Positions 30,472 to 62,228 of a stretch of DNA of 64,000 nucleotides are shown here, in pieces. The notes beneath the pieces were generated by a model. The model saw nothing but the letters and a program-made list of their open reading frames with translations. It was not told the DNA's origin and ran no database searches. The position numbers and the translations under genes are program-made. The stretch is from Mugil cephalus (taxonomy: Eukaryota; Chordata; Actinopteri; Mugiliformes; Mugilidae): the NCBI RefSeq assembly GCF_022458985.1, contig NC_061785.1, positions 1,729,816-1,793,815 on the forward strand, read 5' to 3'. Position 1 is the first letter of the stretch. Each line of letters starts with the position of its first letter.

Positions 30472-33258
30472 GTTCTTAGGAGTGTTTCTTATGCATTATT
30501 TCTTGTGGATGAATAAAGTCTAAGTCTAAGAGACTCAATTAAGAAATAAAGACAACTATGAAGAGAAGATGAGATGATCCCTCATTGCGGTGCAGCAGCA
30601 GCAGCAGCAGCAGCAAACAGTCTAAGCAGTGAAAGGAAAGTGAACATAAGCATTAGTTGCAGATGTGTGATCTACTGGGAGCAGGAACGTGATAGATATG
30701 GTATCAGTGTGAGGGCTGGTTGACGGAGCTTACAATAAACACAGGGAGCATTTCTTTGTCTTGTTTCCTGGTTCTGTTTCCATGCAGCAGTTAAACATCT
30801 GTGACATTATCACAGTGATTTAAATAAATCCTGTTAAAACTGAAACGTGATTCTAGTCTCAGCCTGTCTCCAATGCAGTCTGCTCATCAATGCATATTAG
30901 AAACTAAAATCAGCTGTTAAATGCAGCTCAGGCTGTTTCTGGTGAGTGTTTGCGCGGATGAAGAAGAAGATAGAGACTGTGCAGCACAGCGACACCTGGT
31001 GGTTCATTGAACTCACAGCCTCTTGGACTCCATTCATATAGTGTAACACAGAGACACTGGCGCCAGAATCAATGAACCCAACCAGGATGTGTTGAGATGG
31101 TGGGAGGGAGCTGGAGAACCTGGAGGGAACCCACACCTACACGGGGAGGACACGGGAACTCCACAGAAATATGTGTTTTCATTCTCACCTGAAACTAAAC
31201 CTGGGAAACCTGAACGACAAAAACAAGGAAAGTTTTCCAGAGTGGAAAATAAAATTTCATGTGTAATTAAATAACCATCAAACCGCAGCATTTAAAACCA
31301 GACAAACCAGCCTGTGTGATTATTATTGCATCAGCACTCGTCCTCTACAGGAACCAGACAAACCGTGTCTAACATCAGGTCTGAGGCTCATCCAGATCAG
31401 CGGCTTCTCTCTGCGTTTGTGTCCTGATGATCTAAAGTCATTTCTTCACTTCTTCCAGGCAAAGCGTGTTTTGTTGTGTACTTCAGGGACTTGTGGTTTG
31501 TTTTGTTGCTTTTGTCTGTGGTGGAAACTGAGACGCTGCCGTCCAAGACTCCACAATGGTCAAAGAAAGACTCACAACGCTGAGCAGATTCAACTGTTGT
31601 GTAGAAGTTATCACCTCCTGCATTTAAAAAAAAAGGTTTATTGCATGAAAGAACAATGTTAAAAACTGGAATCTGAGGGAGCTTCAGGCGAGAATCTCCT
31701 CTCGCTCAGCTCCAACTCTCACGCACAGTCAATGACCTTTAACCTAACACCTTTAGGAGGACAATATACTACACAACAAGAGAACCACAACCAGCCTGTG
31801 GGGTTTAATTTAATCTGTTTCACTGTGCGTCTTATGACCAGAAAGGGACTCAAGAGGTAAAACAGACAGAAAAATGAGCTCAAATGACACAAAATAAGAA
31901 TAAAGACACAAAAAAAGCAACCAAAGAGAGAAACAAAAAGATTTACAACAGACAAACAAAAGAAAAAGACTCAAAGAGGCAGAAAACAACCAAACATTTA
32001 CTTATTTCTTAATTAATGACGTTACAATCTTCGTCCTCTCAGCAAAGTCTCGTCTTTACGTGATTTCAGGGGGAGCCGTGAAGGCATCACCCGGCCATTC
32101 TTTTAGTTTCATTTCTTCGTGGGTCTGAGTTTCTGTGCAGCCTCTGATCATCACTAACTTCATAAACTCATCACCAGTGAGGAGGCCTCTGATTTCCAGC
32201 TGAGCCTGAACGTCTCAACATGAGGTCAGTTTGCCCCAGTTGTTAAATGAAATGAACCTTAAAGAAGTTGATTGTTTTACTATTATTATTACTGTTGTTA
32301 TTTTTATCCTTGTTATTTTTAACCTAAACTGATCTAAAATCAATAACTTAACTCAGACCCAGGTGAACTCAGCTGTGGGTCTTTAATAAGGGATTTGAGT
32401 CATTATTCACTAATAATGTTACGGCTCACTTCCTGTTACAGCCTCGGTGCATGCTGGGAAACGTAGTCGTTTCCACAGGTAGAAAACTGGACCATTATCT
32501 AGATTATTCTGATTATCAGAGATTAAAAAACATGATTTCAGTCGGAAATGTAGATGATGTCGGTTTATAGAGCTGTAATTATTCTATAACTCCCCGTATA
32601 TGAGTAATTATAATTAGTTATTATAACTAGTTATGCCAAAAAATAAAGAGTTGTAGTGTTCAGTTAATGTTAAGTTTTTTCCACCTGTTACTGCACATGT
32701 AAGTGAAATTTTATTTCATCTTTTGTGTCATCATTTCTTTTTTTATTTATATGTTTGTATCATTTGCATGTTTCATGTTTCCCCCTTTAGAAGACAAGTC
32801 TGTTCACATTATAAACGTGTGTAAAAACCATATTCCATTTTATTTTACTGGATAACACTTCTGTTTTATTTGATTTTAATCTTCTTTTTACCTGTGGTTT
32901 TTAATGTTGCTCTCTGGTCAGGTGCTGGATTTAGGGACGTGAGCATCAGCTCTGTTTGTAGATGGTGTCGGTGAATTGTCGTCACAGTGGAAACGTTTTT
33001 TTTTAATCTTTTCCTCACACTAACTGCAGCAGCTCCCTGAAGTCCAGACTGGGGCGACTGCAGAGTCGGTTCACCTGGGATCTGAAGGGGGAGGACATGG
33101 ACCTAGAAAACCTCAGCACTCGACTCCAGGAGCACATAGATCTCCGGTTAGGGAAGCGCGGAGCCGTGGCTCGATCTTACGGCTTCTTGGCCTACGTCAG
33201 GTACGGTGGACTTCAGCTTCTATACAGAGGTCTGCAGCTTCTCCATTTTTACAAAACA
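30472..33258 (+). repeat. Tandem unit C, continuous with IFIT gene 1
   Basis: Third copy of the unit. It follows units A and B until about 33,258, then departs at ATTAAGAT: units A and B run into an AT-rich tract, whereas unit C continues into genuine intron 2 and exon 3. Unit C therefore holds the real 5' end of gene 1. Confidence 0.9.
32105..32118 (-). promoter_or_regulatory. ISRE/IRF-E-like site, IFIT gene 1
   Basis: AGTTTCATTTCTTC, 115 bp upstream of the gene 1 ATG. It is the most likely interferon-response element of the intact gene in this block. Confidence 0.5.
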
Positions 33259-36200
33259 TAGATTAAGATGCAGAAGTGATTATTTAAGGATTGAAACAAC
33301 CCTTTTCCTCAGGCATCTCCAGGGTAAACCAGACGAGGCGCTGTCACTTCTCAGCCAATCAGAGGAGGAGACCAGGGAGTGTTATGGTGAGGACTGTGAG
33401 CGGAGGCTCATCGTGACGTACGGAGACATGGCCTGGCTCAAATACCACACCGGAGACTCCACACAGTCACAAAGCTACTGCCAGAGAGTGGAGGACATCC
33501 TGGTAGGAACTAGTGCTGGAAGGTTCAGCTCTTTATTTAGCATCATTCTCACTTTTGTTTAAAATTTAATTCACATTGAAAAGAATCGACCTCTGGTTTG
33601 AACTGTGATCTTCATCCTCTGTCTCTCTACAGGTGAAGCATCCCACCGCTTCCTCAGCAGATCTCCACCCAGAGGTGCTTGGGGAAAAAGGCTGGACCTA
33701 CCTTAAGTTCTCCAGGCCCTATTACCCCAAAGCCGTGGACTGTTTCCGTGAAGCGGTGAAGCTGCAGCCTGAGGACAGCGAGTGGAACGCCGGCTATGCT
33801 ATCGCCCTGTACCGCACAGAGAAGGTCAGAACACATTTCTCTTAGTAAAACAAACCGTGAGACATCCAGCGTCACTGGGCCTTCGCACGAAGCTGCACTT
33901 TTTTAACATTTTCTCTGTTCATATTAAGTGTTTTATCTTTGTGTGCCTTTAGGCGCAAAGGAGCAAAATTTCATTATGTTCTCCTCTTTGTTTTGTTTTT
34001 ATCTGAGTAATTCTAAGCAGTGAACTGACAAGAGTTTAATTTACAGAGGGTTTCAGCAGCACGTGAAGATGAGGAGTCGCCTGCGATGAATCAGATTCGC
34101 CGAGCCCTGGAGATCAACCCTGAAGATGCTGTTCTGCTGTCCATGCTGGCTCTGAAGCTGGCCGCCTACCAACGATGCCAGGAGGCCGACAAGCTAGTGG
34201 AGCGAGCCCTGGAGATCGACCCCGAAAACCCTCATGTCACCCGCTACATAGCCATATACCTTCGTAACCAGGCACGTCAGACTTGAATCAACTCCTAAAT
34301 GCTCAGAGGCTCTGTTTGTCGGTCCCAGTGGTCGCAGGCTAAACAGATCCTCACAATATCCCCAAACTAGATGAGAGGTAAAATCCTTCCAATGTTCAAA
34401 AGCAACTGAAACACTAAAATGTTCAAAACATTAAATAGCAAATCCAAACATTTCTGTTTGGAGCTGTTCCACCTTTATTTACAGTCTATGAGCCTGAATT
34501 CCCTCCAGGGATGCGCCACTAGGGGCCTCTGTTTCTATCTTTTCTGGCTGATCTGGTGTTGGAGTGAAACCTCTTTTGTTTCTGTCCTTTCACACCAGGG
34601 GAAATGCAATCGGTCTATTGATGTGCTGCAGCGAGCGCTGAAGAGGTCCAGTCAGTCAGCTTTCATCCACCATCAGCTGGCCCTCTGCTACATGATAAAG
34701 AAGCGCGGCCACAAACCAGGAAGTACATGCAAACATAACGTATAAATGTACTTTGTTATCACATGACGGATGCCACATGAACCACGTTTAATTACACTCC
34801 TCCAGATGATGTGCAGCAGTGGAGGCGTCAGAGTATTGAGCACCTCGAGGAGGCTGTCAAGATAAAACCCTCATTTCACATCGCATTGGCTGACCTGGCA
34901 GAGCTGTGTGTAGAAGACGGAGATTTCACCAGGTACTCACATCATGCACAAACACTGTAGTCCCTTTATTCTTGTCTTCTAGTTTGAAAAGAAACGCCTC
35001 TCAGGGCTTTTCTCTCTGTTTGTGTCCAAGAGCGGAGGCGTTGTTCCAGCAGGGACTTCAGATGGCACCAAAGTTAGAGAAAGACATCAGTCAAAAGTTC
35101 CACTTCCGCTATGCTAAATTCCATCACTACCACACCAATAACGAGGCTGACGCTATCTCTCACTACACCAAGGTAGGTTTCGAAGGGGCAGAGTCAGAGT
35201 GGGGGATAAAAACTCTGTGGGAAGTTAGTGCAGACATTTCTTACTGGAAAGTCAAAACATGACTACGTACATACCATCACTGCATCCTTTAGTGTCTCCT
35301 GCTGTCTGTTAGTTAAATGTGAGGGTTTTTAGATACATCATGTAGCTGTAGAATATTTGGAGCTACAAGCTGGAGCTTTCTATTTTAGAGAGTATTGATA
35401 TGTTCTCAATTAAATTAAAGTTTGTTAATGTCATGATAACAGACAGTTCATAGGCGTTGAGTTTCAACGGACACAGAAAAAAAAAAAAAAACCTCTGCAT
35501 AAACTGGATGTTCCTCCAGCCAATCAGAGACATTCAAACTAACATTCAGCCCAATTTGACGTCAGGGAGCCCAGAACGGTAACATCACGACACAACAATC
35601 TACCAACAACTCAAAATTCTTCCGTTTGTTCTTGGTGCAAAGACGAACAGGTACATAAAGTATTTACATTTAATGAACTGATCCTTTTACAAGACAAATC
35701 CCAGAGCACTGCTGCCATCTACTGTTCAGTTCTGGGTCTCACTGTCCTGTTATATTTACATCTTTTCATCATATTGAGAAAGTAACCACTACTACTAATA
35801 TTCACAACACACGACATATCGTAAAATGGCAAAAATCAAAGAATTCATTATTCTCTTTCAGCATAAAAGTTGTCTTCTTCATGGCATAACATCTATTAAT
35901 GTCTCTGAACCGCTGGCCCACATTAGGCCACATGTCCATGAGAGTTTATGTCTCAGTTTGACCGAGGTGGTTGGATATAACCCCAAAATTAAAGGTTCAG
36001 GATCAAAGGGAAGCTTTACGCCCAACACTTTTTCGTATAATTTGTGAGATCTTCCACCAGAAGCTTGGATGAATGACAGTCTTAACACTTTTCAACATGT
36101 TTTACAAACCAGTTCATCAGTTGTTTGTGTTTGAAATTTCAGGGTCTGCTTTTAGCAGCGGATACGGGGGACGGGCGACAATGTGCAAAGGTGAGGTGAA

Positions 36201-36570
36201 TATTACAAATCCTGAGGGTGGACAAAAAACACAATCATCGTATCCCCAACCAGCTTTAACGCCATGGATCAAAGCTTCACGCTGCCATGAGTCAGGATTC
36301 ATCTGAATTTCATCTGAAGACACCTTGAATAGACACAAATTAACCTTGAGATGTTTCTCTTCTATTCTCCTCCAGAAGCTAAAAGAGATTGCAGATCAAC
36401 GCCTTGAAGGAGACAAGGATGATGGGAAGGCGTTCGCTCTGTTAGCTGTGGTGGCCAAAGCTCAGGGTGACAAGAAGGAGGCTGCAAACTTTTACGAGAA
36501 AGCTTTGGACTGCGAAGAAAACGACGAGTATCTGTCTGCTCTGTGTGAACTGAGGATGGAGCTGGACTGA
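32220..36570 (+). CDS. ifit: IFIT gene 1, ten exons, 472 aa, intact
   Basis: This is a cytosolic interferon-induced TPR protein. Mammalian members bind foreign 5'-end RNA or translation factors. Exons: 32,220-32,224; 33,030-33,200; 33,313-33,502; 33,633-33,824; 34,047-34,271; 34,599-34,722; 34,806-34,932; 35,031-35,172; 36,143-36,190; 36,376-36,570. The phases are consistent throughout and the frame ends at TGA. IFIT hallmarks are RFTWDL (near residue 17), [16 protein letters not shown] (near 54-69), AWLKYHTGD, and TPR helices such as AVDCFREAVKLQPEDSEWNA, ADKLVERALEIDPENP and IDVLQRALKRSSQSAFIHHQ. The length suits the family. Intron 5 appears to start with GC (CAG|gcacgt) rather than GT. It is the most divergent of the four paralogues, for example in exons 6, 9 and 10. 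Predicted by eye; not confirmed by RNA. Confidence 0.9.
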
Positions 36571-36779: not shown

Positions 36780-36785
36780 AATAAA
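36780..36785 (+). promoter_or_regulatory. Poly(A) signal, IFIT gene 1
   Basis: AATAAA 210 bp past the stop codon and just before the transposon at 36,828. It gives a 3' UTR of about 0.23 kb. Confidence 0.6.
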
Positions 36786-38297: not shown

Positions 38298-38310
38298 AGT
38301 TTCATTTCTC
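38298..38310 (-). promoter_or_regulatory. ISRE/IRF-E-like site, IFIT gene 2
   Basis: AGTTTCATTTCTC, 90 bp upstream of the ATG. The position and sequence are shared with gene 3. Confidence 0.5.
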
Positions 38311-38387: not shown

Positions 38388-41300
38388 ATGAGGTAAGTTT
38401 TCATGTTCCAGTCTCATCTTTATGTGTAACTGTCTCGTGTGTAATTATATTATTATATTATATTGTTATTAAATGTGTTACATTCAGTAGATGCTCAGTG
38501 GATGATTTAGATGACTTAATGTGTACTTGTGCATGTACATGGGTGTATCTGTTACTTTGTATATGATGTCTATGAATAAAACTTTGTTACGTTCTTCATG
38601 ACTTTTTCCTTTAATAAAAAAATACGAGCTTTGTGGGTTCAGCTCTCCACACTGAGCCATTTTTCCTGACATGTCTGAGCATGAACGTTAGATGAAATAA
38701 CAAACAATGGTATTAATTATTCAGCTTACCAACGGTTTGATCTGTCACGGGGCTGATTGTGTAACTTTTGTGAAATCACTCTGAGCATGGTTCCCACACA
38801 TTTCAAATTAAATCATCTGGTGAAGAGCTTTATGTGCGTGTGAGTGATGAGTGATACGTATGCAGCGTTCCCAGTCTTCTCCTCGCCAATGTCCGATCAC
38901 TGGCCAACAAAATGGACGAGATTCGGCTGAGGATTGTCTCGCGGAGGATGGACAGCTGTGTGGCCGTCATCACGGAAACCTGGCTGGACAACAACACACC
39001 CGACGCCGCGGTGGAGCTGGCGGGACGCTCTTTGTTCCGAGCAGACCGGACTGCAGCCTCTACTAAATCCAGAGGTGGAGGACTTGCGCTCTACGTACAC
39101 AACTCCTGGTGTACAGCCACTCACGTCATCGGAACGCACTGCACACCTGATCTGGAATACCTGGCTGTGAAATGCAGGCCATTCAAGACGGTGAGAGAGT
39201 TCTGCTCCATCCTGATCATAGCTGTTTACATTCCACCGCGGGCTAACGCTAAGCTAGCGCTAGAGGAGCTGTACTGTCTGATCAGCAGGCAGATGAACTC
39301 CAACCCAGAGGCAGCTGTGATTGTGGCTGGAGACTTCAATCATGTGAATCTCAAAGCAGTGCTTCCAAAATTCTACAAGTCCATACACTTTCCAACCAGA
39401 GACATAACACACTGGATCAAGTTTACTGCAACATCTCAGGAGCTTACAAGGCTGCAGCAGCTCCTCACCTGGGCTCATCTGACCACATCTGCGTGCAGCT
39501 GATACCAGCATACAAACCTCTGATCCACAGGACAAAACCAACCACCAAAACAGTTCAGGTATGGACTGAGGAGGCTTCTTCAGCACTACAGGACTGTTTT
39601 GAACTCACTGACTGGGAAGTGTTCAAAGATGGCTCAGACCTGGAGGCCTACACATCATCTGTCCTGGACTATGTGCAGTTCTGCACTGATGCTGTCCTAC
39701 CCACAAAGTCCATCAAGGTGTTTCCCAACCAGAAACCATGGTGTGACAGCACAGTGCGGTCTCTACTCAAAGCTAGAGACGCAGCCTACAGGTCAGGTGA
39801 CAGGCTGGCCTATAGCAGGGCCCGGAGGGAGCTGAAGAAGGGCATCCAGCAGGCCAAACACAGATACAAACAGCGCATCGAGGAGCACTTCACCGACAAC
39901 AACCCGCGTGAAATGTGGAGAGGCATCAGAACCATAACAGACTACAGGAACAGCAACCAGCAGTTCAACCACGACCCCCTTCTGCCTGACACTTTAAACA
40001 GTTTCTTTGCACGCTTCGACACACCTGGCAGCAGAGAGACTGTCCAACCTCCACAGCCAGAGGAGCAGCCCCAGCCCCTCGTCCTGCAGCAACACCAGGT
40101 CAGCGCCACGCTGAGGAGGATCAACATCAGCAAAGCTGCAGGACCAGATAAGGTGTCAGGTCGGGTCCTGAAGCTGTGTGCCCATCAGCTGGCTGGAGTC
40201 TTCCTGGACATTTTCAACCTGTCCCTGCAGCTCGCTTCAGTTCCTGTCTGCCTCAAGTCCTCCATCATGTGCCGGTGCCAAAAAAATCCGCTGTCACCTG
40301 CCTCAACGATTACCGTCCTGTTGCTTTAACACCGGTAATCATGAAGTGCTTTGAGAGGATGGTCTTAAGTCACATCAAGGACGTTATCCCTGCTACTCTG
40401 GACAGACATCAGTTCGCCTACAGGGAGAACCGATCGACAGAGGACGCAGTCTCATTAGCACTGCACACGGCCCTGACTCACCTGGAGCATCCTAACACCT
40501 ACGTCAGGATGTTATTTGTGGATTTCAGCTCAGCTTTCAACACTGTGATCCCAGACAAGCTGACGCTGAAACTCCACAACCTTGGACTGTCTGCCTCTCT
40601 GTGCTCATGGATTAGAGACTTTCTCACCCACAGGCCACAAGTGGTGAGAATTGGGGACCGTACATCATCTACACTGGTCCTGAGCACAGGGACACCGCAG
40701 GGATGTGTGCTCAGCCCGGCCCTCTTCACCCTCTTCACACATGACTGCACTGCCGTTCACCCCACAAACATGGTTGTGAAGTTTGCAGATGACACCACCG
40801 TAGTGGGTCTCATATCGGACAACGACGAGACTCACTACAGAGAGGAGATCCAGCACCTGACAGGATGGTGTTCAGACAACAACCTTGTCCTGAACACCAG
40901 CAAGACCAAGGAGGTCATCGTGGACTTCAGGAGATCCAGGAGGAAGGAACACACCCCTCTCCTCATTCATGGGGAGGAGGTGGAGCGGGTGGACAACATC
41001 AAGTTCCTTGGCATCCACATCACATCTGACCTCACTTGGTCCACGCATACATCTCACCTGGTGAAGAAGGCCCAACAAAGGCTCTTCTTCCTCAGGAAGC
41101 TGAAAAGGACTGGACTCTCCTCTCAGCTTCTACAGAGCCACAATAGAGAGCATCCTCTGTCTGAGTGCAACAGTGTGGTATGGGAGCTGCACTGTACAGG
41201 ACAGGAAGGACTTGGCCCGGGTGGTGAAAACCGCACAGGGGATTGTTGGGAGTCCTCTCCCACACCTGGACTCAATATATGACAGCCGGGTCCAAAGGAG

Positions 41301-44300
41301 GGCTGGCCGTATAGCTGCAGACCCCACCCACCCAGGCCACGAACTGTTTGTGCCTCTTCCCTCCAGGAAGAGGTTCAGGAAAATAAAGACCAACACAAAC
41401 AGACTGAGACACAGCTTCTTCCCCAGAGCTGTGAAATCCATCACCCCATCTCCTCACATACCCCCCCATCCAGAGACTGAGCATTAAACCCCTGCAGATG
41501 CCAGATAGACTCTGATACTGCACTGCACCTTGTCTAAACATGCTGCTATACATGCAATATTCATACTGGTCACTTTAAATATCCTTGATTGCACTACTAC
41601 CTCTCATCTCATCTTATTTTATTCTTAAATTCTATTTTTTATTTTAACTTGTTATTCTGTTTTATATTTCCTATTCTATATTTATATTATTTATATATCT
41701 CAGGTCTGTACATTTATACCAAGAGCTGCTGAACAGAATTTCGTTGTGCCTTGCATAATGACAATAAAGATTCTTGATTCTTGATTCTGTTGTGCTGGTG
41801 CTGCAGTGATGCTGCTGAGGATCTGGTCTGCAGGCTGGAGAAGCTGCAGAGTCGCTTCACGTGGGACCTGAAGGAGGAAGACCTGGAGCTGGACGACCTC
41901 AGCAATCAGCTGCAGCACGATAGAGACCTGAAGCTGGGGCAGCGGGGGGCCGTGGCCCACTACTACCGCTTCCTGGCTTATGTGAGGTATGCAAAGTTGT
42001 ATTCTGATTCACAAATGGGTGGACGACCAAGTCCCCGACAGCCTCCAGATAAAGTGACTGTTCTGAAAGTGTTGAGAACGAAGAGAAAGAAAGACGAGGA
42101 AATGAGAAAGTGTGTCCTCCTCTTCCTCCTCAGGTATCTCCAGGGTAAACCAGACGAGGCGCTGTCACTTCTCAGCCAATCAGAGGAGAAGACCAGGGAG
42201 TGTTATGGTGAGGACTGTGAACGGAGGCTCATCGTGACGTACGGAGACATGGCCTGGCTCATATACCACACCGGAGACTCCACACAGTCACAAAGCTACT
42301 GCCAGAGAGTGGAGGACATCCTGGTAGGAACATAGACTCAGACCTCTGTCTGATAAACATGTTGCATCAAACAGAAATGTAAAAGCATGTTGGAACTGAC
42401 TCTCTGCAGGAGAAGAATCCAGCCGATTCCCCTTCTGACCTCCTCCCAGAGGTGTATGGAGAGAAAGCCTGGACCTTCCTCAAGTTCTCCATGTCCTACT
42501 ACAAAAAAGCCATTGCGTGTTCACTCAGGGCCTTGAAGCTGCAGCCGGACGACTGGGAGTGGAACAACTGCTACGCTATCGCCCTGTTTCGTACAGAACC
42601 GGTACTTTACTGACTCCTCTTATGGAGCCTCATCCATCCTAGTTCACGCTAAACACGAACTAGTTAATTTCAGTTTGTGACCTAGTTCAAGTTCATAGTT
42701 TTTCATAGTTTTTCACATTTTGTAATTTTTTAACATACAGGCCCCTCCAAAACTATTGGAACAACAAGGCGAATTCCCATGCTTTTGTTGTTCACTGAAG
42801 ACATTTGGGTGGAAGATGAGTATAAGGCCAGAGTTCAGCTTTGATTTCCTGGTATTTTTCCTGCTCAGTTGGGTTAAGGTCAGGTGATTGACTTGGCCAG
42901 TCTAAAACCTTCCTTCCCCTGATGAAGTCCTTTGCTTTGTTGGCAGTTTTCTTTGAGTCATTGTCCTGCTGCATGATAACATTCCCCCCGATTAATTTGG
43001 ATGCATTTCTCCGTAAACTGACAAAATGTTTCTGTACACTTCAGAATTCATTCTGCTGTTACCAGCATCAGTTACATCATCCGTAAATATTAATGAGCCT
43101 GTACCATCACGCCCAGGCCATGACATTACCTCCACCAGGCTTCACAGATGAGCTTATGCTTCGGATCATGAGCAGTTCCTTTCTTTCTCCACCCTTTGGC
43201 CTTTCCATCACTGTGGTGGAGATTAATCTTGGTCTCCATAAGACTGTGTTCCAGAACTATTGTGGCTCATCTCCGTTCTTTTTTGCATGCTTCAATCTGG
43301 CCTCTGATTCTTCCTACTGATCAGTGGTTTGCATCTTTTGGTTTGGCCTCTATATTTATGCTCTCAGAGTGTTCTTTTGTTCTTCTTTTGTCTTTTGATG
43401 TTTTGGGGTTTTTCTTCACAACTGTCACAACATTTCTGTCATCAACTACTGTTGTTTTCCTTGGCCGACCTGTTCCACGTCTGTTGCTCAGTTCACCAGT
43501 AGCTTCTTTCTTATTCAGGACATTCCACATTGTTGTGTAGCTTTACCCAATGTTTGTCCAATGGCTCTGATTGGTTTTCCTTCTTTTCTGACATAGACAG
43601 CTCTCTGGTCTTTATGTTGGTTTATCATCTTTAACAAGAAATTCATACTTTATAGGATTCAACCCAGGCCAAAAAGTAGACAAGTAATGCAGCCATTTAA
43701 TGTTTGAACAATCAACCTTAAAGGCAACACCTGGTCAACAAGAAACACCTGTCAGTCACATGTTCCAATAGTTTTGCAACAAAAACAAGGGAATTTGCCT
43801 TGTTGTTCGAATACTTTTGGAGGGGACTATAGTTCATAATTACAAAATATGAACTGTGAACTTGAACCAGCATGCATTCATTTTTTTCCTTTTTGCTTTT
43901 TAAAAATAACCCTTCCCCTAATCCTAGCACTCCAGTGTTTGTGTGGGTCAGTGTATGTCCACAGTTGGCAAAATCATGTTCACAATTCACAAAAATACCA
44001 ACACGTTCATGCACAACACTGTCCATCCCCATCAGTGAAATGATTTCACTGGCTAATTCTGCCTCATCTGTTGCATGAACTAATGTACTCATCAAATTGT
44101 CTCCAGCCGACTAACTGAGGTCTTTTATGCAGAACGATTTAAAACGGTATCCTGAAGAGTCGCCAGTCACCACACAGCTTCGTCGGGCTCTGGAGATGAC
44201 CCCCAACGATGGCGTCCTGCTCTCCTTGCTGGCTCTGAAGCTGCTCCACTACCAGAAACATGAGGAGGCTGATGGTCTGGTGAAGAAGGCCCTGGAGGTC

Positions 44301-48757: not shown

Positions 48758-48770
48758 AGTTTCATTTCTC
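48758..48770 (-). promoter_or_regulatory. ISRE/IRF-E-like site, IFIT gene 3
   Basis: AGTTTCATTTCTC, 91 bp upstream of the ATG, matching gene 2 in sequence and position. Confidence 0.5.
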
Positions 48771-49069
48771 CTCACTCATCCTCACTCATCGTCTCACATC
48801 ACTGCTCAAACTCCAAACGTAAAGGAACAAGATTATTCGGTTGTTAAGATGAGGTAAGTTTTCATGTTCCAGTCTCATCTTTATGTGTTATTATCTTATG
48901 TGTAATAGTACATTATTACTAGATGTATTATATATTATATATCAGTTTGAGAGAAGAGTAAAGGAAGACAAACCTCCCTCTGAATGAGGAAGGTGGATAG
49001 AGATACATTCACAGTAAATGAGAAATGAAACTTGATCAATCACAGTCCAGAATCTCCATGCCCTGGATG

Positions 49070-49402
49070 ACTGTGATCTCATCTCATCTTCTACGGCTTA
49101 ATCCTAGCTAGGGTCGCAGGGGTTGTTGGAGCCTATCCCACCTGTCATTGGGTGAGAGGTCTGGACAGGTCTCCAGTCCATTGCAGGGCTAACACATAGA
49201 CAAACAACCATTCTCGCTCACACTCACACTTAGGGTCAATTTAGAGTCACCAATCAGCCTAACGAGCACGTCTTTGGAGGTGGGAGGAAACAACACGGAC
49301 ACAGGGAGAACATGCAGGGAGAAAGGCCCGAGCTGGACTCGAACCCTGTTATTCTCACTGGGAGGCATCAGCGCTAACCACTCATCCAATGTGCCGCCCA
49401 TT
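49070..49402 (+). mobile_element. Common fish interspersed repeat (SINE/LINE-tail-like), gene 3 intron 1
   Basis: Contains ATGCAGGGAGAAAGGCCCGA, CGAACCCTGTTATTCTC and GTGCCGCCCA, the recognisable end of a very abundant teleost repeat. Part of the same repeat type is in each 2.9-kb unit (GGACACGGGAACTCCACAGA). No coding sequence. Confidence 0.6.
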
Positions 49403-49407
49403 ATGAC

Positions 49408-49570
49408 TTCAATTCAATTTTTTTTATATAGCGTCAACAACAATACAATTGTCTCAAGACACTTTACAAAAAACAACCTGAAACCTCCAGAGCAGCCTCA
49501 GGGCGACAGTGGCAGGAAGAAACCTTGAGTAGAACCAGCTCATATGGAGGAACCATCTGTCTAAGGCCAG
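49408..49570 (+). mobile_element. Interspersed repeat fragment, gene 3 intron 1
   Basis: Contains TCAAGACACTTTACAAA and GGCGACAGTGGCAGGAAGAA, phrases of another abundant teleost repeat. Its superfamily is not determined here. Confidence 0.5.
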
Positions 49571-49599
49571 CTGGGTAGAAACAGAGACTTCCTCAGAGT

Positions 49600-50400
49600 T
49601 GTTCGATGTTTTGCTGGACTGTCTGTAGGTACAGAGTCTCTGGCTGTCTGCGAATGTTCGGGTACCGCACCGCTTGAGGGAGAGTGATACTGTTCACCTG
49701 GTAACCTTGACGACCTTTAGCACCACCTGGTGTGATCGGTTGGGCCGGTCAAGGTGGACCTTTGCAGTTGGTGTGGTCACCATGTTGACACTGGTCTGGG
49801 TCTGCCGGATCGAGTCATGCAGAATGGTGAGGTCCAGTTCTTTGCACGTCTTGCAGGGGGGCCTCAAATTAGTAAGTGGCCAAGCTTCAAGTGGCCAAGA
49901 AGCACTTGATACTTATATTGCTCAGTCAGGCGTCCATGACTGCCCATCAGGTTATCCAGGGCCATCTTGAGAAAGACAAGGTCACTATCATGGTCATGTT
50001 CGAATACTGGCAGTTAACAGCACTGCTGGTAAGATGTGGTACTGCAGTGGGTCCTGAAGTGGGCTGTTGTGGGCCCAGATACCAGGAGTAGTCACAGAGA
50101 CTTGGTGTGACATCGTAGGGAGCTCAGTGTGAGTAGGCATGATGTGTATCACCTGGTAGCGGGTGCATTGCAGGAGCAGTGACAGTATGTTGAGCTGATG
50201 GAGGCTGTATGTTATGTGGTGCAGGAGGAGGCACAAAAAGAGGCAGCTGGAGTAAGTGTCCTGGGTGTGATGACTTGGGCATGGAAGCTATGTGCCCAGG
50301 TCTTTCAGTTCTACAGGGCTGTGAGCTGGGTGGATTATAGGGCGACTCACAATGGCAGGATGGTTAGAAGGTGGTGAAGAGTTAGATGGTTGGATGATGA
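49600..50400 (+). other. Unassigned, repeat-like intron sequence
   Basis: GC-richer than the surrounding intron and absent from genes 2 and 4. Open frames at about 49,674-49,970 and 49,876-50,091 are short, overlap in different frames and match no family I know. It may be a decayed retroelement inside gene 3 intron 1. Confidence 0.35.
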
Positions 50401-52992
50401 AATGCGTTTACTCACGTGACAAACTTTGGAACGTAGGAGGACTGGGTCAGGAGTATAATCCTCACTTGTTATCAATAACCTGTCATCCTGCTGTTGTGTT
50501 GGTGCTGCAGTGATGCTGCTGAGGATCTGGTCTGCAGGCTGGAGAAGCTGCAGAGTCGCTTCACGTGGGACCTGAAGGAGGAAGACCTGGAGCTGGACGA
50601 CCTCAGCAATCAGCTGCAGCACGATATAGACCTGAAGCTGGGGCAGCGGGGGGCCGTGGCCCACTACTACCGCTTCCTGGCTTATGTGAGGTATGCAAAG
50701 TTGTATTCTGATTCACAAATGGGTGGACAACCAAGTCCCCGACAGCCTCCAGATAAAGTGACTGTTTTGAAAGTGTTGAGAATGAACAGAAAGAAGACGA
50801 GGAAATGAGAAAGTGTGTCCTCCTCTTCCTCCTCAGGTATCTCCAGGGTAAACCAGACGAGGCGCTGTCACTTCTCAGCCAATCAGAGGAGGAGACCAGG
50901 GAGTGTTATGGTGAGGACTGTGACGGAGGCTCATCGTGACGTACGGAGACATGGCCTGGCTCAAATACCACACCGGAGACTCCACACAGTCACACAGCTA
51001 CTGCCAGAGAGTGGAGGACATCCTGGTAGGAGCATAGACTCAGACCTCTGTCTGATAAACATGTTGCATCAAACAGAAATGTAAAAGCGTGTTGGAACTG
51101 ACTCTCTGCAGGAGAAGAATCCAGCCGATTCCCCTTCTGACCTCCTCCCAGAGGTGTATGGAGAGAAAGCCTGGACCTTCCTCAAGTTCTCCGTGTCCTA
51201 CTACGACAAAGCCATCGAGTGTTCACTCAGGGCCTTGGAGCTGCAGCCGGACGACTGGGAGTGGAACAACTGCTACGCTATCGCCCTGTTTCATGGAGAA
51301 GTCTGTACAGCCACTCAGTCCATCTGACTCCTCTCACGGAGCCTCATCCATCCACAGTGTTGTGCAAGTTCACACTAAACAGGAAGTAGTTGAGTTCAGT
51401 TTGCACAGATTAAAGCGAACTAGTTCAAGATCATAAATCACATTTTTGAGTCTATGAACTATGTTCCTCTTTCATCTTTTAGCTGCATCAGTCATGATGT
51501 TTGCCTTAAAACCGCACATCAACTGGCAGCTGTCGTAAAACCTTTTGTGTTTTTCTTGAATGGTGGTGAACATCGTTATTTCCTCCAGATTGAGTGAAAC
51601 TCACGTCCACGTTCACAATAGGAAAAACCATGCATTCAGTTCACAATTCAAACAAATACGGATGTGTTCATGCACAACACTGTCCATACCCATCAATGAA
51701 TCTGGATTGAATCTGAATTCTGTCTCATCTGTGACTGTTGCATGAACTAATGTACTCATCAAATTGTCTCCAGCCGACTAACTGAGGTCTTATATGCAGA
51801 GGGATTTAAAACGGTATCCTGAAGAGTCGCCAGCCACCACACAGCTTCGTCGGGCTCTGGAGATGACCCCCAACGATGGCGTCCTGCTCTCCTTGCTGGC
51901 TATGAAGCTGCTCTTCTACCAGAAATATGAAGAGGCCGATGGTCTGGTGAAGAAGGCCCTGGAGGTCGGAACCAATGACCCTCAAGTTATCTACCATGTG
52001 GCCAAATACCTTCGCAAACAGGTAGGTTCACACATCACCTGTAGTTTCGAAGTGGTCGTTGTTCCTGAGAATCTGGATGGATGATGTTCTACACAGTCAC
52101 TGAAGGAAGGAAAGTGGCCTTGTCTTTCTAATGAATGACCTCTTTGTTACCTTTAAAACCGCCTCTCTTCCAGCGCAAGCTGGATCAGGCTATAGATCTT
52201 CTGAAGGGAGCGCTGGAGAGAAATATTCGGACAGCTTTCATCCACCATCAGCTGGCCCAGTGCTACAGAGATAAGAGGAGGGAACTGTTCCCAAAGAAGC
52301 CCAGACCAGAGAAAGGTACTGTACGACTACACTGTTCCACTTCACACTCTGTTCAGAACCAGACTCCTGACTTCTGCAGGCAACCAGACTGGTTGGTCGT
52401 CATTTTGTGTCTCTTAGGGATGGGCAGGTTAAACGTTTATTTATTATATAATTGATGGTTTTGATTATTTTATAAATGTTCTCAGTTAAAAATGTCTGAA
52501 CCACAAGTTTCTCCACAAACAAGTAGTGTAACAACACAACGTCTGTCACTAAATAATGTGTAATTAGTAACTGCTCAGTAAAAGTGTTCTTATCTACCAG
52601 AGCTGCAGCGTGTCAGGCGTCTCAGTATTTACCACCTGGAGGAAACAATCAAGCTAAGGAAGGGCTTTAACCACGCCAAGGCTGATCTGGCTCTGCAGTA
52701 CGCAGAGGAATCTGACAATAGGAGGTGAATATTTGGTTCAGTATTAGACAGACAATCACAGAGGCAAACAACAATCCTGAAAACACAGGAGCTTAAACGT
52801 TCAACGAGGTGTAGGTGTGTTATTTTGTATACTGTCTTTTCAGAGCTCAAGAAATGTTCAATGAACTTTTGGAGACATTAGACGAGGAGTCTGGGAACAT
52901 CTACCAGTTCATCTGTCGGTCCTACGCTGAGTTCTGCCAATACAACATCACTGACTGGGATCTTGCCATCACCTACTATAAAAAGGTACAGC

Positions 52993-53128
52993 TGGCCCTA
53001 ACCATAACTGGCCCTACCAGACCCTAACCCTACCAGGCTCTAACCCTACCAGACCCTAACCCTACCAGGCCCTAACCCTACCAGGCCCTAACCCTATCAG
53101 GCCCAAACCCTACCAGGCCCTAACCCTG
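52993..53128 (+). repeat. Telomere-like CCCTAA/CCCTACCAGG minisatellite, gene 3 intron 8
   Basis: Same repeat as gene 2 intron 8 but with about two more units, so copy number has changed since the gene duplication. Confidence 0.85.
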
Positions 53129-53998
53129 TTACTGTGGGACTTTAAAAGTCAATCCAGCACCCACAAAGAAGAAGACAATAAACAAAGACACAAGGCTAAA
53201 GGGATACACATATTCATCTCTCTCCATATTTTCCTGTGTTGTTTCCAACAGGCTCTTAAGTTCAACAGCTCCACTTCAGATGGACGATGGTGTGTCAAGG
53301 TTTGTCCCTTTCTTACTGCTGCTCACGCAATCTTTCATTATCTTTCAATCAATCTGTACTTATAAAACACTTTAAAAACAACACAGTTCTGTACACATAC
53401 ATCAGAGTCTCTTGCTTTAGTAACGACATCTTGTTAAATGAGATACCCCTCTATGATGCAAGCTGTGGCATCACAATGATTCTATTAAGAGAAATTTTGA
53501 ATGACCCTCCACTGTCTTTACTAACATGCAGACATGTGCCTCTTGATCTCTTACTTTAAACTGAACGGGAAGTATCTTTCCACAGAAGCTGAAGCAGATA
53601 CTAGAGAGGCATTTCAGAACACGTCCCGAACACAGCATCGCCTACGGGATTCTGGGAGCTGTGGCCAAAGCAGAGGGTCACCTGAAGGAAGCAGTCAGAT
53701 ACTACGAGACAGCTCTGGAAAGAGACGCGGGTAACGCCGAGTATCTGTCGGAGCTGTGTGAGCTGCGTCTGAACCTGGACTGATTCCTCGAAGGGTCCAG
53801 AGTGACCAGAGTACCTATCTATGAGTTTAGGTCATTTATCACTGATACATTTTAAGTTTTAAGTTTGCATGGAAACAAATAGATGTAATATTATACATGT
53901 CATTTATGATATTTACTGATATGATATTTACTACAACTACATATAAATGTATATTTATATGTATGTATTGTTCCATCTGATCTGTACTGCTTCAGGTC

Positions 53999-55789: not shown

Positions 55790-56227
55790 TGACCCTCTAG
55801 TGTTTGTCCATAATGGAGTGCAGTTTATTCAGTGTCCTCCTGTCCCTCCCTGAGACAAGTGTCTCCAACTCTCTACCGATCACGTGTCCAGCCTTTAGGA
55901 TCAATTTGAACTACTCCCCCAACAGACCACAGCAAAGAACAGGACACTCACTACAACAGACTGGTAGAAAGACTCTAGTAACTCACTGCACACGTTGAAA
56001 GACCTGAGCTTCCTGAGGAACTAGAGTCCACTCAGGTCCTTCTAGTCCACAGCATCACTGTTGTCCCTCCAGTCCAGTCTGTTGTCCATGTGGACTCCCA
56101 GGTTCTTGTAGGGGTCCACTACATCGACCTCCAGGCCCTGGATGGTGATGGGCTCCACTGGTGTCCTCTTCCTCCTGAAGTCAATGACCATCTCCTTTGT
56201 CTTGTCCCAAACTAGGAACACATGCAA
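55790..56227 (-). mobile_element. LINE reverse-transcriptase C-terminal fragment
   Basis: The minus strand reads TKEMVIDFRRKRTPVEPI, then VDPYKNLGVHMDNRLDW. This is the region after the catalytic motif of L2/Rex1-type reverse transcriptases, equivalent to [17 protein letters not shown] in the LINE at 38,866. Downstream codons (LFFL, LRSFNV-like) continue in broken frames. It is a dead fragment of a different LINE family from the intron 1 element. Confidence 0.75.
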
Positions 56228-56477
56228 GCCTTAGTCTGTTCACGCAAAGAGATTTAGTTTATCTGTATTATTCATTTATTATTTTTGGCGTGGTCATAGT
56301 TCTGTACGGTATGAAGAACACCTGCAGAAACAGAAAAAATAAATCTGGAACAGGTGGAGCTGGACATTAAAAGGAGACTTTAAGTACCACACAAGATCAT
56401 TTATTGGCAAAAAATCTGAATTCAGCACTGAAGTTGAGGACAAGATATTGGTTATATATTACTCTCTGACCAATCGG

Positions 56478-56528
56478 TAGAATAGAATAGAATAGAATAG
56501 AATAGAATAGAATAGAATAGAATAGAAT
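56478..56528. repeat. (AGAAT)n pentanucleotide array
   Basis: About ten units of AGAAT, followed by GTCCTTTATTTTCATTACAG. The arrangement looks like a minus-strand LINE 3' tail with an expanded terminal repeat. Confidence 0.93.
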
Positions 56529-56899
56529 GTCCTTTATTTTCATTACAGTGTATAACCAGACTGGAGAGTTTCTTCTTTTCAGTGAAAAACACAAGTAGCT
56601 CTACACAAACTAGTGCAAAAAGGTTCTATGTACTTTACAAGAGAAGAGAGTTAAAATACTAATTAAATCGTGTGAAATATGTTTTTTTATATATATATAT
56701 ATAAGATGTAAACATGTCCTGGACACGGTTGGACAAGTGTGTGAGACTTCAGGTTGGCGATGGCTCTTAGAAACAAACGGTCTCTGATGTGTGTGCAGCG
56801 CCTCCTAGAGGGCAACAGCTCAAACAGCTGAGAACTGTCACCACTTCTCAACAACAAATATAAAACCAGCTTTCTAATTCAGTGTGTTGCTTTGATTGC

Positions 56900-57310
56900 G
56901 CAGGTTTTAATCTACTTGTGGACTTGACGCAGCTCTTTGTGGTAGGGTTGTGTCTTTGGCAACTTATTGTGTCTCATTGTGTGACATTTTGTGTCTTTTT
57001 TGGGTGCTCTCTGTCTCTTTGTGCCACAGTCATTCATTGTCTCATGCTGCCAACGTTGTGTCCTCTTGGTTGCTCTCTTGGTCTTTGTAGTCCTGATGTC
57101 TGTCTGTTTGTGGTCTTTATGTGTCTCTTTGTAGTCATTTGTTGTCTCACGGTGCCAGCATTGTGTCTGTTTTGACCTGCTGTGTCTCTTTTTGGTCATT
57201 GTACATCTTCTTGCTTTATTGTTTTGGTCGTTCTGGTTGTGGTTTGTCTTTTCAGTCTTGATATCTGTGTCTTTGTGTGTCATTTTGTCTGTTTTGTTGC
57301 ATTTCTCTGA
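56900..57310 (+). repeat. Degenerate TGTCTCTTTGTG-type repeat upstream of IFIT gene 4
   Basis: Third example of the block preceding genes 2 and 3, with irregular GTGTCTCTTTGTAGTCATT and TTGTCTCACGGTGCCAG units. Confidence 0.65.
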
Positions 57311-57397
57311 GTTGGGCTCCACCAACCTCAATCACTCAGCGGTTTGTCTGAACACGACTCAGTTAAAAACAGTTACAGGCGACAGCGAACGCTGTTC

Positions 57398-57411
57398 GTT
57401 TCCTGTTTCCT
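57398..57411 (-). promoter_or_regulatory. Candidate IRF-type site, IFIT gene 4
   Basis: CGTTTCCTGTTTCC, 66 bp upstream of the ATG. It differs from the element of genes 1-3: the two GAAA cores are three bases apart. Gene 4 may respond differently to interferon. Confidence 0.35.
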
Positions 57412-57463
57412 GTCCTCACACAGACTACACACACAACAGGAACCAGATTATTCAGTCATTAAA

Positions 57464-60400
57464 ATGAGGTAAGTTCATGTTCCTGTTTTTAATTGAATTG
57501 TATTTATTTTTAACCTTTAGGTCATTACTAAATTTTAATTATAATTCATAAAGTTGTTTTAATCTCCTCAACTTCAAAGTGGTGAGGCTGGGATACCGTT
57601 ACTCATTGTGTGTGTGTGTGTGCTTGTACAGCTATCTTTCTGAGAACCAATTTGTGCAAAGTGAGGACATTTTGGCCGGCCCTCACTTCTTTGGTTGTTT
57701 TGAAGGTTAAAACTCAGTTTTAGGGTAAAGGTTACAGTTAGGTTATGGTCATGGTTTATGGTTAGGGTTGGGGGCTAGAGAATGCATTATGCCAACGAGT
57801 ACCCATACAAGAACGTGTGTGTTTACATACATGTGTGGCCTTTTTTGTTGTTGTGTTTATGCAAAGCATAAATCAACATCTTTTGTATGAAAAGTGCTTC
57901 TGAGGACAAGAATGTCCACTTGAAGGAGTAAAGGCAGATGAACCCCTCTCTGAACAGGGGGGGTGGATGGAGAATCATTCGCCGTAAAACATGATTATAG
58001 ATGAGAAAGGAAACAATCACAGGCCAGAATCTCGTTAGCAGAGTCTCGTCTTTTAGAACCGAAGACAAGTCCAGTTGTCGTTGTTTTATCTTAATATTTC
58101 AATCTACCATGTCCTGGATGACATAACATCCATAGTCACATGTTATCAATAACCTGTCGTCCTGCTGTTGTGTTGGTGCTGCAGTGATGCTGCTGAGGAT
58201 CTGGTCTGCAGGCTGGAGAAGCTGCAGAGTCGCTTCACGTGGGACCTGAAGGAGGAAGATCTGGAGCTGGACGACCTCAGCAATCAGCTGCAGCACGATA
58301 TAGACCTGAAGCTTGGGCAGCGGGGGGCCGTGGCCCACTACTACCGCTTCCTGGCTTATGTGAGGTATGCAAAGTTGTATTCTGATTCACAAATGGGTGG
58401 ACAACCAAGTCCCCGACAGCCTCCAGATAAAGTGACTATTCTGAAAGTGGTGAGAACAAAGAGAAAGAAAGACGAGGAAATGAGAAAGTGTGTCCTCCTC
58501 TTCCTCCTCAGGTATCTCCAGGGTAAACCAGACGAGGCGCTGTCACTTCTCAGCCAATCAGAGGAGGAGACCAGGGAGTGTTATGGTGAGGACTGTGAGC
58601 GGAGGCTCATCGTGACGTACGGAGACATGGCCTGGCTCAAATACCACACCGGAGACTCCACACAGTCACAAAGCTACTGCCAGAGAGTGGAGGACATCCT
58701 GGTAGGAACATAGACTCAGACCTCTGTCTGATAAACATGTTGCATCAAACAGAAATGTAAAAGCGTGTTGGAACTGACTCTGCAGGAGAAGAATCCAGCC
58801 GATTCCCCTTCTGACCTCCTCCCAGAGGTGTATGGAGAGAAAGCCTGGACCTTCCTCAAGTTCTCCATGTCCTACTACAACAAAGCCATCGAGTGTTCAC
58901 TCAGGGCCTTGAAACTGCAGCCGGACGACTGGGAGTGGAACAACTGCTACGCTATCGCCCTGTTTCGTACAGAACCGGTACTTTACTGACTCCTCTTATG
59001 GAGCCTCATCCATGCCCAGTTGCAGTGTTTCCATCTAACATCTAGAGCTAAAACATTTTTACTATCTCATGAGGTGGTTTTTCAGACATATTGATATTAC
59101 GTTAGTTGACCTCTTCTTGCATCTCTCTCGCTCTATAATTTCAACAACTTTGTTGTGGCGCCCCTGGGTAAGAGATATTTTGCACCGAGATATTTCATGT
59201 GTCAGCAGCCCACTTTTAGTTTTGTCCTAAGGCTGAACATCTTTAATACCTCCAGGCTGAATGAAACTCACGTCCACGTTCACAGATGGAAAAATTATGT
59301 GTTCAGTTCTCAATTCACAAAAATATGAGCATGCACAACATTGTCCATCCCGGTCACTAAAATAATTTCACCATCTAATTCTCAGTCACCTGTGCAGAGC
59401 GATTTAAAGCAGCATCCTGAAGAGTCGCCAGCCACCACACAGCTTCGTCGGGCTCTGGAGTTGACCCCCAACGATGGCGTCCTGCTCTCCTTGCTGGCTC
59501 TGAAGCTGCTCCACTACCACAAATACAAAGAGGCCGATGGTCTGGTGAAGAAGGCCCTGGAGGTCGGATCCAGGGACCCTCAAGTAATCTACCGTGTGGC
59601 TGAATACTATTACAAGCGGGTAAGTTCAACATGCAAACGTGCAGTACATAGATGACTGCAATTTTTCAATGCAGCTAACTTCTCGTTGTGATTTAGAGAA
59701 GTAACTTTGATCCCTTTCGGATGACCCCCTCAGGGAAACTGTATTTCCAGCAGGTATACACAAAAAAAGAAATAAGAGAAATAAACGATGTACAATAAAC
59801 AGCCCCCTGCGACCCTAGTGAGGATATGCCGTAGTAGAAGATGAGATGAGATGAGATGAGAATAAATAGCAAACTCTTAACAGATTCAATTACAAATAAC
59901 AAATATTGCACAGTAGGTGGGTGGATGGCTACCACTACTCCTTTCCTTCTGTCCTCTGTGGTCTATTTCCTCCTCCCACCGAGTGAGGAGTTGTAGAGCC
60001 TGATGGCATGAGGAACAAAGGAGTTCCAGAGTCTATTAGTCCTGCACTTGGGAAGGAGCATCTTGTAAACCCAACCCTAACCCTAACCCTAAGTACCTGA
60101 AGTGACATGCGTCGGCCAGTGCAAACCCTTAACTCGTCATTCCAAACACCTGCCCGGGGTGTAGCATCGAGATAATCTCTAAGACCTAACCTTAACCTCC
60201 AACCCCGTATTTGTAAACTGTTTTACTCAGATAAGTGGACAGAACACACACTGAGATCCAGGACTAAACAGCACCTAAAACAAAAGGAAAAATTTGGAGT
60301 TGTCCTCACTTATAGGTTATTATTCTGTTGTCTGGCCCACTTGAGATCAAACTGGGCTGAATGTGGCCCCCAAACTCTATAGTATAGTCTGTACATTCAC

Positions 60401-62228
60401 TGAAGAGACACTTGGAAGGAAAGTGGTCTTGTCTTTCTAATGAGTGACCTCTCTGTTACCTTTGAACCCGCTTCTCTTCCAGCACCAGCTGGATCAGGCT
60501 ATAGATCTTCTGAAGGGAGCGCTGGAGAGAAATAGTCGGTCAGCGTTCAACCACCACCGCCTGGCCGAGTGCTACAGAAAGAAGCAGAGGGAACTGTTCC
60601 CAAAGAAGCCCAGACCAGAGAAAGGTACTGTACGACTACACTGTTCCACTTCACACTCTGTTCAGACCCAGACTCCTGACTTCTGCAGGCAACCAGACTG
60701 AAAGAGACGCTATTGTGTGGTCGTCTCTTGATGGTCGTTTTGCATCTCTTTGGAAGTGGGCAGGATAAGTGTTTTTATTTACTACATAATTAATGTTTTT
60801 GATTATTTCACCAATGTGCTCAGTTAAAAATGTCTGAATCACAAGTTTCTCCACAACTCTGTCACCAAAGAATGTGTAATGAGTAACTGCGGGTAACTGT
60901 GGCATCTGGTGTTCTGGGCATGTCCCACCGGTAGGAGGCCATGATGGAGGGATTACATCTCCCGTCTGGCCTGTGAGTGCCTGGGTATTCCTCCAGAGGA
61001 GCTGGTGGAAGTGGCTGGTGAGAGGGCCTGGATAAGCAGAAGACGACGAGACGAGACAGGAGTAACTGCTCATTAGTGTGTTCTTATCTACCAGAGCTGC
61101 AGCGTTTGAGGAGTCTCAGTATTTACCACCTGGAGGAAACAATCAAGCTGAGGAAGGGCTTTAACCACGCCAAGGCTGATCTGGCTCTGCAGTACGCAGA
61201 GGACTCTAACAGAAGGAGGTGAGTATTTGGTTCAGGATTAGACAGATGCTGAGATTTGTTTCTTCTAGAAAGGCAATGAAGCCATCAGAGAAACCAATCC
61301 AATCCAATTTATTCACAAAGCACACTTTTAAATAAACCCGAAGGGTTACAATAAAGTAATTTACACACAATAAAACAAAGAGAGACCTGAGAGATCAGCT
61401 GGGTGTGTAGGGGTGCAGAAGCTCAGAGAGGTGCAATGGGGGAGGGCCATGTAGGGATTAAAAAGCCAATAGAGGGATTTTAAAATGAATTTTGGGATGG
61501 ACTGGTAGGCACTTTAGTGAAGCTAAAATCAATTAAATGTGCTCAAACTTTCTTGTGCCAGTTAAAAGACGTACAGCTGCGTAGGCTAGATGCTGTACCA
61601 GTTGAAAGCATGCAATAGATCCATATAAAGGGCATTGCAGTGCACTTTGCAGTTTACTGGAAGCTACTTGCTCATTTTCACCACAGCTTTAATATGGCCT
61701 TCGAGCTTAAGATCTGCATCTACTTTACCCCCAGACCACATGCAATAAGTTTGATATACGGTGCCAAGGAACAGACAAAATAACCACGGAGGCAGACAAA
61801 GACACAGGAAGTGGTTTAAGAGAAGTGAAACTATAATCTGGGTGACTTTCAGTGTGGCAAAGGTGCATTAGTTTGTATACTGTCTTTTCAGAGCTCGAGA
61901 ACTGTTCAATGAAGTATTGGAGACATTAGAGGAGGAGTCTGGGAACATCTACCAGTTCATCTGTCGGTGCTATGCTGAGTTCTGCCAGTACCACACCACT
62001 GACAGTGAAAAAGACCTTGCCATCACTTACTATAAAAAGGTACAGCTAACCCTAACTAACTCTAACCTTAACTGACCCCAACCCTGTTACTGTGGGATTG
62101 TTAACATTTGAAAAGAACAATAATAATAAGAAGACAGAGAAAGACATGAGGCTAGACGTTGTCTGTGTTGTTTCCAACAGGCTCTGAAGTGCAACAGCTG
62201 CAATTCTGAAGGAAAGTACTGTGCAAAG
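57464..62228 (+). CDS. ifit: IFIT gene 4, exons 1-9 visible, 3' end outside the window
   Basis: Interferon-induced TPR protein, close to gene 2. Exons: 57,464-57,468 (ATGAG); 58,185-58,364; 58,512-58,701; 58,786-58,977; 59,398-59,619; 60,483-60,624; 61,095-61,218; 61,892-62,039; 62,181-62,228. All phases fit and no stop is met, giving about 417 residues so far. Exon 8 is 6 nt longer than in genes 2 and 3: TDSEKDLAI replaces TDWDLAI. Exon 9 reads ALKCNSCNSEGKYCAK. The usual 198-nt exon 10 was not found before 64,000; a Tc1 element fills most of that intron. Intron 1 is short (716 bp) and free of the LINE. Introns 5 and 7 hold interspersed repeats. Whether the gene is complete cannot be judged here. 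Confidence 0.88.
59750..60120 (-). mobile_element. Interspersed repeats in gene 4 intron 5
   Basis: A GATGAGATGAGATGAGATGA tail follows GCGACCCTAGTGAGGATA, a common teleost repeat end. It interrupts a second repeat containing TGTAGAGCCTGATGGCATGA and TCCTGCACTTGGGAAGGAGC. No coding sequence. Confidence 0.5.
60068..60091 (+). repeat. Short interstitial telomere-like repeat
   Basis: About four consecutive CCCTAA-type units (AACCCTAACCCTAACCCTAA) in gene 4 intron 5. Confidence 0.85.
60903..61065 (+). mobile_element. LINE 3'-end fragment (RTE-like) in gene 4 intron 6
   Basis: Contains TCTGGCCTGTGAGTGCCTGG, CAGAGGAGCTGGTGGAAGTG and CTGGATAAGC, the familiar 3' end of an abundant fish LINE. It sits about 30 bp before the exon 7 acceptor. 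Confidence 0.55.
61290..61640 (-). mobile_element. Interspersed repeat in gene 4 intron 7
   Basis: Contains CCAATTTATTCACAAAGCAC, GTGCTCAAACTTTCTTGTGC and TTGGGATGGACTGGTAGGCA, phrases of a widespread teleost repeat. It is non-coding. Genes 2 and 3 have a much shorter intron here. Confidence 0.5.

Follow-up and report, generated by a model that had tools for sequence, protein, structure and literature searches.

In the survey of IFIT genes in PMC3688568, 46 of 60 genes have two exons, and a review of 2026 still calls IFITs typically two-exon (PMC13197388). In mammalian IFIT1 and IFIT5 a 5-nt exon 1 with the ATG and a phase-2 intron 1 are described in that survey, essentially all coding sequence lying in one exon, as an earlier note on the DNA analyzed here had correctly assumed. 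Among fish IFITs, zebrafish IFIT5A is reported to have more than five exons (PMC3688568), and outside the family, lineage-specific gain of introns that break up a long coding exon has been described in teleosts for slc26a1 and slc26a2 of Eurypterygii, where slc26a1 went from two to seven exons and the direction of change was established across 81 vertebrates (PMC12357937). Here we describe a window of 64,000 nucleotides (nt) from the 634.8 Mb, 24-contig assembly of Mugil cephalus (contig C16:1729816-1793815), in which four IFIT genes lie in tandem on the + strand at 32220-62228, each composed of a 5-nt exon ATGAG and nine further exons. On another contig, C6, there are IFIT genes of the usual layout, so that one fish genome carries both two-exon and ten-exon IFITs, both with the same 5-nt exon 1.

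The C16 genes resemble mammalian IFIT1 and IFIT5 in their exon 1, the phase of intron 1, a full-length TPR protein and a CH25H neighbor, and differ from them by eight extra introns in the long coding exon. Zebrafish IFIT5A is likened to them by its exon count and not by intron positions, and it differs in its location on chr5, where one common neighbor was found, and in a predicted long C-terminal extension (PMC3688568). The slc26a1/slc26a2 case concerns a transporter gene, with five new introns versus eight.

Four split IFIT genes and the age of their introns

Exons were placed by reading the sequence and then by script, and the models (Table 1) are built on reading frame, splice signals and homology. 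The earlier note had proposed four paralogues with a conserved ATGAG exon 1 and nine further exons, and these could be placed in all four genes. It had also given the intron phases 2,2,0,0,0,1,2,0,0 for all of them; this is exact over nine introns in genes 1 and 2 and over the eight in-window introns of gene 4, whose intron 9 ends outside the window, but gene 3 matches only if one missing base is ignored. That base is absent from exon 3 (189 versus 190 nt, near 50923), and its absence breaks the frame, leaving 13 stops in the joined reading; gene 3 may thus be a pseudogene or the product of an assembly error, and its exon 4, as modelled, ends one codon early at an altered donor. The span proposed for the four genes was right at its start, whereas its end is that of exon 9 of gene 4 only, exon 10 starting past the window. 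An exon 1 with ATG plus two bases and a phase-2 intron 1 were found in all four genes and in two upstream fragments, and the remaining IFIT coding sequence is spread over nine exons rather than the typical single one. All modelled introns are GT-AG with the sole exception of the GC-AG intron 5 of gene 1; the GC stands at 34272-34273, and genes 2-4 have GT there.

Table 1. Positions of the IFIT genes, ch25h copies and associated elements (window coordinates unless a contig is given)
Feature	Position	Strand	Exons, in order	Remarks
IFIT gene 1	32220-36570	+	32220-32224, 33030-33200, 33313-33502, 33633-33824, 34047-34271, 34599-34722, 34806-34932, 35031-35172, 36143-36190, 36376-36570	ten exons, 472 aa, intact
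IFIT gene 2	38388-46104	+	38388-38392, 41807-41986, 42134-42323, 42410-42601, 44133-44354, 44507-44648, 44938-45061, 45181-45322, 45556-45603, 45907-46104	ten exons, 480 aa, intact
IFIT gene 3	48849-53783	+	48849-48853, 50511-50690, 50837-51025, 51112-51300, 51800-52021, 52174-52315, 52601-52724, 52844-52985, 53252-53299, 53586-53783	ten exons, one base missing in exon 3, broken frame
IFIT gene 4, exons 1-9	57464-62228	+	57464-57468, 58185-58364, 58512-58701, 58786-58977, 59398-59619, 60483-60624, 61095-61218, 61892-62039, 62181-62228	ten exons in all, 482 aa, intact
IFIT gene 4, exon 10	C16:1794148-1794345	+		window-extended 64333-64530; starts 333 nt past window end
Exon 3 homogenisation tract (putative)	33306-33510	+		205 nt, 99.5% identical to gene 4 (blastn)
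Truncated IFIT copy	26421-27396	+	26421-26425, 27226-27396	exons 1 and 2 only
Truncated IFIT copy	29317-30298	+	29317-29321, 30128-30298	exons 1 and 2 only
GTTTCATTTC upstream of gene 1	32106-32115			
GTTTCATTTC upstream of gene 2	38299-38308			
GTTTCATTTC upstream of gene 3	48759-48768			
ch25h	23322-24391	-	24391-23969, 23654-23322	251 codons
Uninterrupted ch25h paralogue	C13:15817116-15817856			

Judged by end-to-end homology, the four C16 genes are true IFITs. In phmmer comparisons, residues 4-470 of gene 1 align with residues 8-481 of human IFIT5 (E 1.3e-75, 258 bits) and residues 8-478 of gene 2 with IFIT5 9-481 (E 1.6e-66, 228 bits); both also match human IFIT1, gene 1 with E 2e-69. Genes 1, 2 and 4 are 31-32% identical to IFIT5.

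When the proteins of genes 1, 2 and 4 are aligned, seven of the eight internal introns share a column, the exception being intron 6, shifted by one column within a gapped loop. So many coinciding sites are no matter of chance, which we judge without a computed probability. The introns of gene 1 are 40-66% identical to those of genes 2-4, and outside exon 3 gene 1 differs from genes 2 and 4 with dS 1.00-1.02 and dN/dS ~0.40. Given the shared columns and phases, the diverged introns and a dS of ~1.0, the introns are older than the divergence between gene 1 and genes 2-4, which bears out the earlier claim that they predate the local duplications. Exon 3 departs from this divergence, being 98-99% identical in nucleotides between gene 1 and the other genes (dS 0.00-0.03), while identity is 52-54% and 65-66% in the introns that flank it and 44-74% in exons 2 and 4-10. 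We read this near-identity, which like the two truncated upstream copies is absent from the earlier note, as the probable outcome of gene conversion confined to exon 3.

Compact IFITs and ch25h copies in the same genome

The whole assembly was searched with the gene 1 protein as query and the best candidates alone were scored, so that the counts are lower bounds and a divergent further IFIT could be missed. At least 53 matches were obtained, 27 on C16 (the split locus, including gene 4 exon 10) and 26 on C6, where they form two clusters (27.27-27.33 Mb and 28.15-28.21 Mb) indicative of a large tandem expansion. Twenty of the C6 matches fall within open frames of 438-502 codons uninterrupted by a stop; two of the other six have a stop inside and four are in shorter frames of 153-337 codons. 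At the 21 C6 loci retrieved for close inspection, ATGAGGTGAG was present upstream within the fetched flank in 12 cases, and the exon-2 acceptor CAG/TGCT with a coding frame behind it in 19 (17 frames of 423-458 codons, the other two frames being 317 and 291 codons long). Both loci without the acceptor are minus-strand matches that were inspected without reversing the strand. The compact frames read through all eight intron positions of the split genes.

These C6 genes share with the split genes the ATGAG exon 1, the homology to IFIT and the tandem expansion, and differ in their single long coding exon, in being 22-25% identical to IFIT5 (15 proteins compared) and in a match to IFIT5 that stops near its residue 417-427. 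Two of them, L008 and L018, scored 109 and 104 bits against human IFIT5 in phmmer, compared with 258 for gene 1 and 228 for gene 2; the best human match was IFIT2 for L008 (118 bits) and IFIT1 for L018 (106 bits). By these scores, the split C16 genes are nearer to mammalian IFITs than the compact C6 genes are. In a tree built, with no outgroup, from the split proteins other than that of gene 3 (three of four), 15 of the 19 compact C6 proteins and three human proteins, the split C16, compact C6 and human proteins formed three clades with support of 100/99 or better.

The IFIT genes lie ~8 kb from ch25h, whose intron, noted earlier, is real as a gene model (314 nt, phase 0, between codons 141 and 142). 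Vertebrate CH25H genes examined in PMC3324826 are reported to have no introns, fish CH25H not being known to be among them. In M. cephalus, four ch25h paralogues cross the codon-141 point in one open frame (C13, 62%; C10, 51% and 47%; C19, 50%), and a distant paralogue on C8 (L033; pieces 53% and 34% identical) is interrupted elsewhere, by a phase-2 intron at codon 131. The possibility that the window ch25h is the only split copy is ruled out by that C8 paralogue. Short ch25h matches were also found on C2 and C15. Two introns at different positions, where the rest of the family in this genome is uninterrupted, favor insertion, and introns seem to have entered the ch25h family more than once. 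The contrast drawn in the earlier note, of two neighboring genes compact in mammals and intron-rich here, fails, since this genome has two-exon C6 IFITs and four uninterrupted ch25h paralogues.

CH25H is one of five neighbors common to vertebrate IFIT loci (PMC3688568). PANK, another of those looked for, is absent near either IFIT cluster and has its genome matches on C4, C13 and C17; for FAS, ACTA2 and SLC16A12, the other common neighbors, no search was made. With PANK elsewhere, ch25h alone ties the locus to the mammalian order.

Gain or loss of the introns

The split C16 IFITs are, in our view, probably the result of intron gain in a teleost lineage rather than of repeated loss, with the direction drawn from the paralogues in this genome and from the literature. 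The ancestor would have had the usual layout of an ATGAG exon 1, a phase-2 intron and one long coding exon. Eight spliceosomal introns would then have been inserted into the long exon, in a teleost lineage and before gene 1 parted from genes 2-4; the adjoining ch25h would have gained one intron as well, and the C6 branch would have kept two exons. Direction, timing, number of insertion events and function are the parts of this explanation that we infer; the gene models, the accord of the copies, the compact branch beside them and the common exon 1 are shown directly. The formerly long exon would thus hold several introns of conserved position and phase, on which genes 1, 2 and 4 agree.

Four lines of evidence favor gain: the midpoint of the tree, the ch25h paralogues described above, the exon counts of zebrafish IFITs and the precedents for intron gain in teleosts. 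The midpoint, used for drawing only, falls on the long C6 branch and places the split C16 genes beside the two-exon human genes, so that loss would be needed at least twice. In zebrafish, the exceptions to the two-exon layout named in PMC3688568 are IFIT17B (three exons) and IFIT5A, and by elimination the IFITs on chr12, in a neighborhood reported there to keep four common neighbors, would be two-exon genes. Gain of introns in long exons of teleost genes has been described, besides slc26a1, for serpins (PMC2746811), MC2R/MC5R (PMC3151243) and mtnr1b (PMC7541902). In M. cephalus, Sulfate_transp genes whose exons are few and long, one on C19 and one on C5, were each matched in four pieces, a fragmentation that Eurypterygii slc26a1 and slc26a2 would show; if this is what they are, they agree with that lineage but do not prove it.

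The principal rival is that the ten-exon layout is ancestral, the two-exon IFITs having lost the eight 3' introns by way of reverse transcripts, once or several times (in mammals, on C6 and in zebrafish), with the C16 genes as survivors. Loss mediated by reverse transcriptase is expected to remove 3' introns and to spare the 5' one, and it fits this process that the only intron that the split genes have in common with the compact ones is the first, 5'-most one. The zebrafish, platypus and dog IFITs whose exons number more than five (PMC3688568) also speak for an old split layout, and a single loss event would be enough if the root lay on the C16 branch. With the midpoint root on the C6 branch, on the other hand, more than one loss, each independent and each ending in the same layout, would be required, and the ch25h paralogues point to insertion; we hold an ancestral ten-exon layout to be unlikely. 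The insertion points themselves do not help, six of the eight internal ones in gene 1 reading MAG/R, a context that cannot separate gain from loss because introns in general tend to it.

Several points weigh against gain. The C6 branch is 1.65 long, and the tree came with a warning of long branches joining one another; with that branch so long, and three clades without an outgroup leaving the root unfixed, midpoint rooting is weak and no proof. Zebrafish IFIT5A, platypus IFITB and dog IFIT5L, each with more than five exons (PMC3688568), imply that some split IFITs may be older than the proposed gain. The eight gains needed in a single gene are more than the five described in slc26a1. Nothing was found on how the introns originated, no search for such traces having been made. 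As to relatives beyond this genome, 55 pattern matches in viral contigs included none, and the one bacterial TPR match (29% identity) from an outgroup search of genome contigs, which gave 37 pattern matches, was set aside as irrelevant.

That the models are artefacts, or the genes pseudogenes whose exons are relics not expressed as modelled, would accord with the frameshift in gene 3, the two copies that are just 5' fragments and models made from genomic sequence, but is very improbable given three intact frames of 472, 480 and 482 aa, a dN/dS of ~0.40 when gene 1 is compared with either gene 2 or gene 4 (exon 3 excluded), consistent splice sites and full-length matches to IFIT5.

RNA-binding residues, promoters and meaning for the family

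The spliced C16 proteins would fold as IFIT TPR superhelices. To compare RNA binding we used the ten residues of IFIT5 entered as 'high' in pull-down column a of Table 5 of PMC9677429, several of which are weaker in its other column. Gene 1 keeps seven of the ten, gene 2 four and gene 4 three, compared with nine in human IFIT1, five in human IFIT2 and 0-2 in the 15 compact C6 proteins compared. Going by these residues, only gene 1 stands out, with genes 2 and 4 at or below the level of IFIT2. Gene 1 would thus be the best candidate among the C16 genes for an RNA 5'-end binder of the IFIT5/IFIT1 kind, and it probably binds 5'-triphosphate or cap-0 RNA as those proteins do. Its mRNA would need nine splicing steps.

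Liu et al. 2013 (PMC3688568) considered fish IFIT subgroup II as probably lost from 'advanced' teleosts. We speculate, with some doubt, that the split C16 genes may instead be this fish line, ch25h-linked orthologues of mammalian IFIT1/5 that survive in such teleosts. A burst of intron gain in the region, striking both ch25h and the ancestral IFIT, would have disguised them, and the abundant compact IFITs on C6 would have lost their 5'-RNA pocket.

Upstream of gene 1, a 2.9 kb unit with its promoter, exon 1 and exon 2 stands three times in tandem (24674-33269, ~98% identity), and only the last copy runs on into gene 1. Since exon 2 (171 nt) has phase 2 on both sides, the upstream copies of exons 1 and 2 would be frame-neutral, and from their sequence they might supply gene 1 with alternative 5' ends. 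No canonical interferon-stimulated response element (ISRE; GAAANNGAAA or TTTCNNTTTC) was found within 400 nt upstream of genes 1-4. The sequence GTTTCATTTC, which looks like an ISRE with a spacer one base shorter, is present at -114, -89 and -90 of genes 1, 2 and 3, and it is kept there although the flanks of gene 1 hardly align with the others. At the compact loci, one of 15 candidate exon-1 sites (12 loci) had an ISRE core (L014, at -302), several having little upstream sequence. Intron 1 of gene 2 contains open frames of a LINE-like element (38855-41487), of which the frame 40152-41282 matches RVT_1. On the - strand, 42792-43040 and 63160-63765 hold frames that resemble pieces of a Tc1-type transposase, by eye only.

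Many-exon IFITs and intron gain in teleosts are known already. We found no ten-exon IFIT described in the open-access literature; the subscription journals of fish immunology may hold one. As far as the open-access literature shows, what is new is a ten-exon IFIT family and a compact sister family in one genome, the former beside a ch25h with an added intron. Fish IFIT surveys may have overlooked split genes. Should the pattern hold across teleosts, it would provide a vertebrate gene that has gained eight introns, for which compact paralogues within one genome serve as controls, and would allow direct tests of the timing of insertion and of joint gain by neighboring genes, and a test of whether an antiviral response gene pays for its need of splicing during infection.

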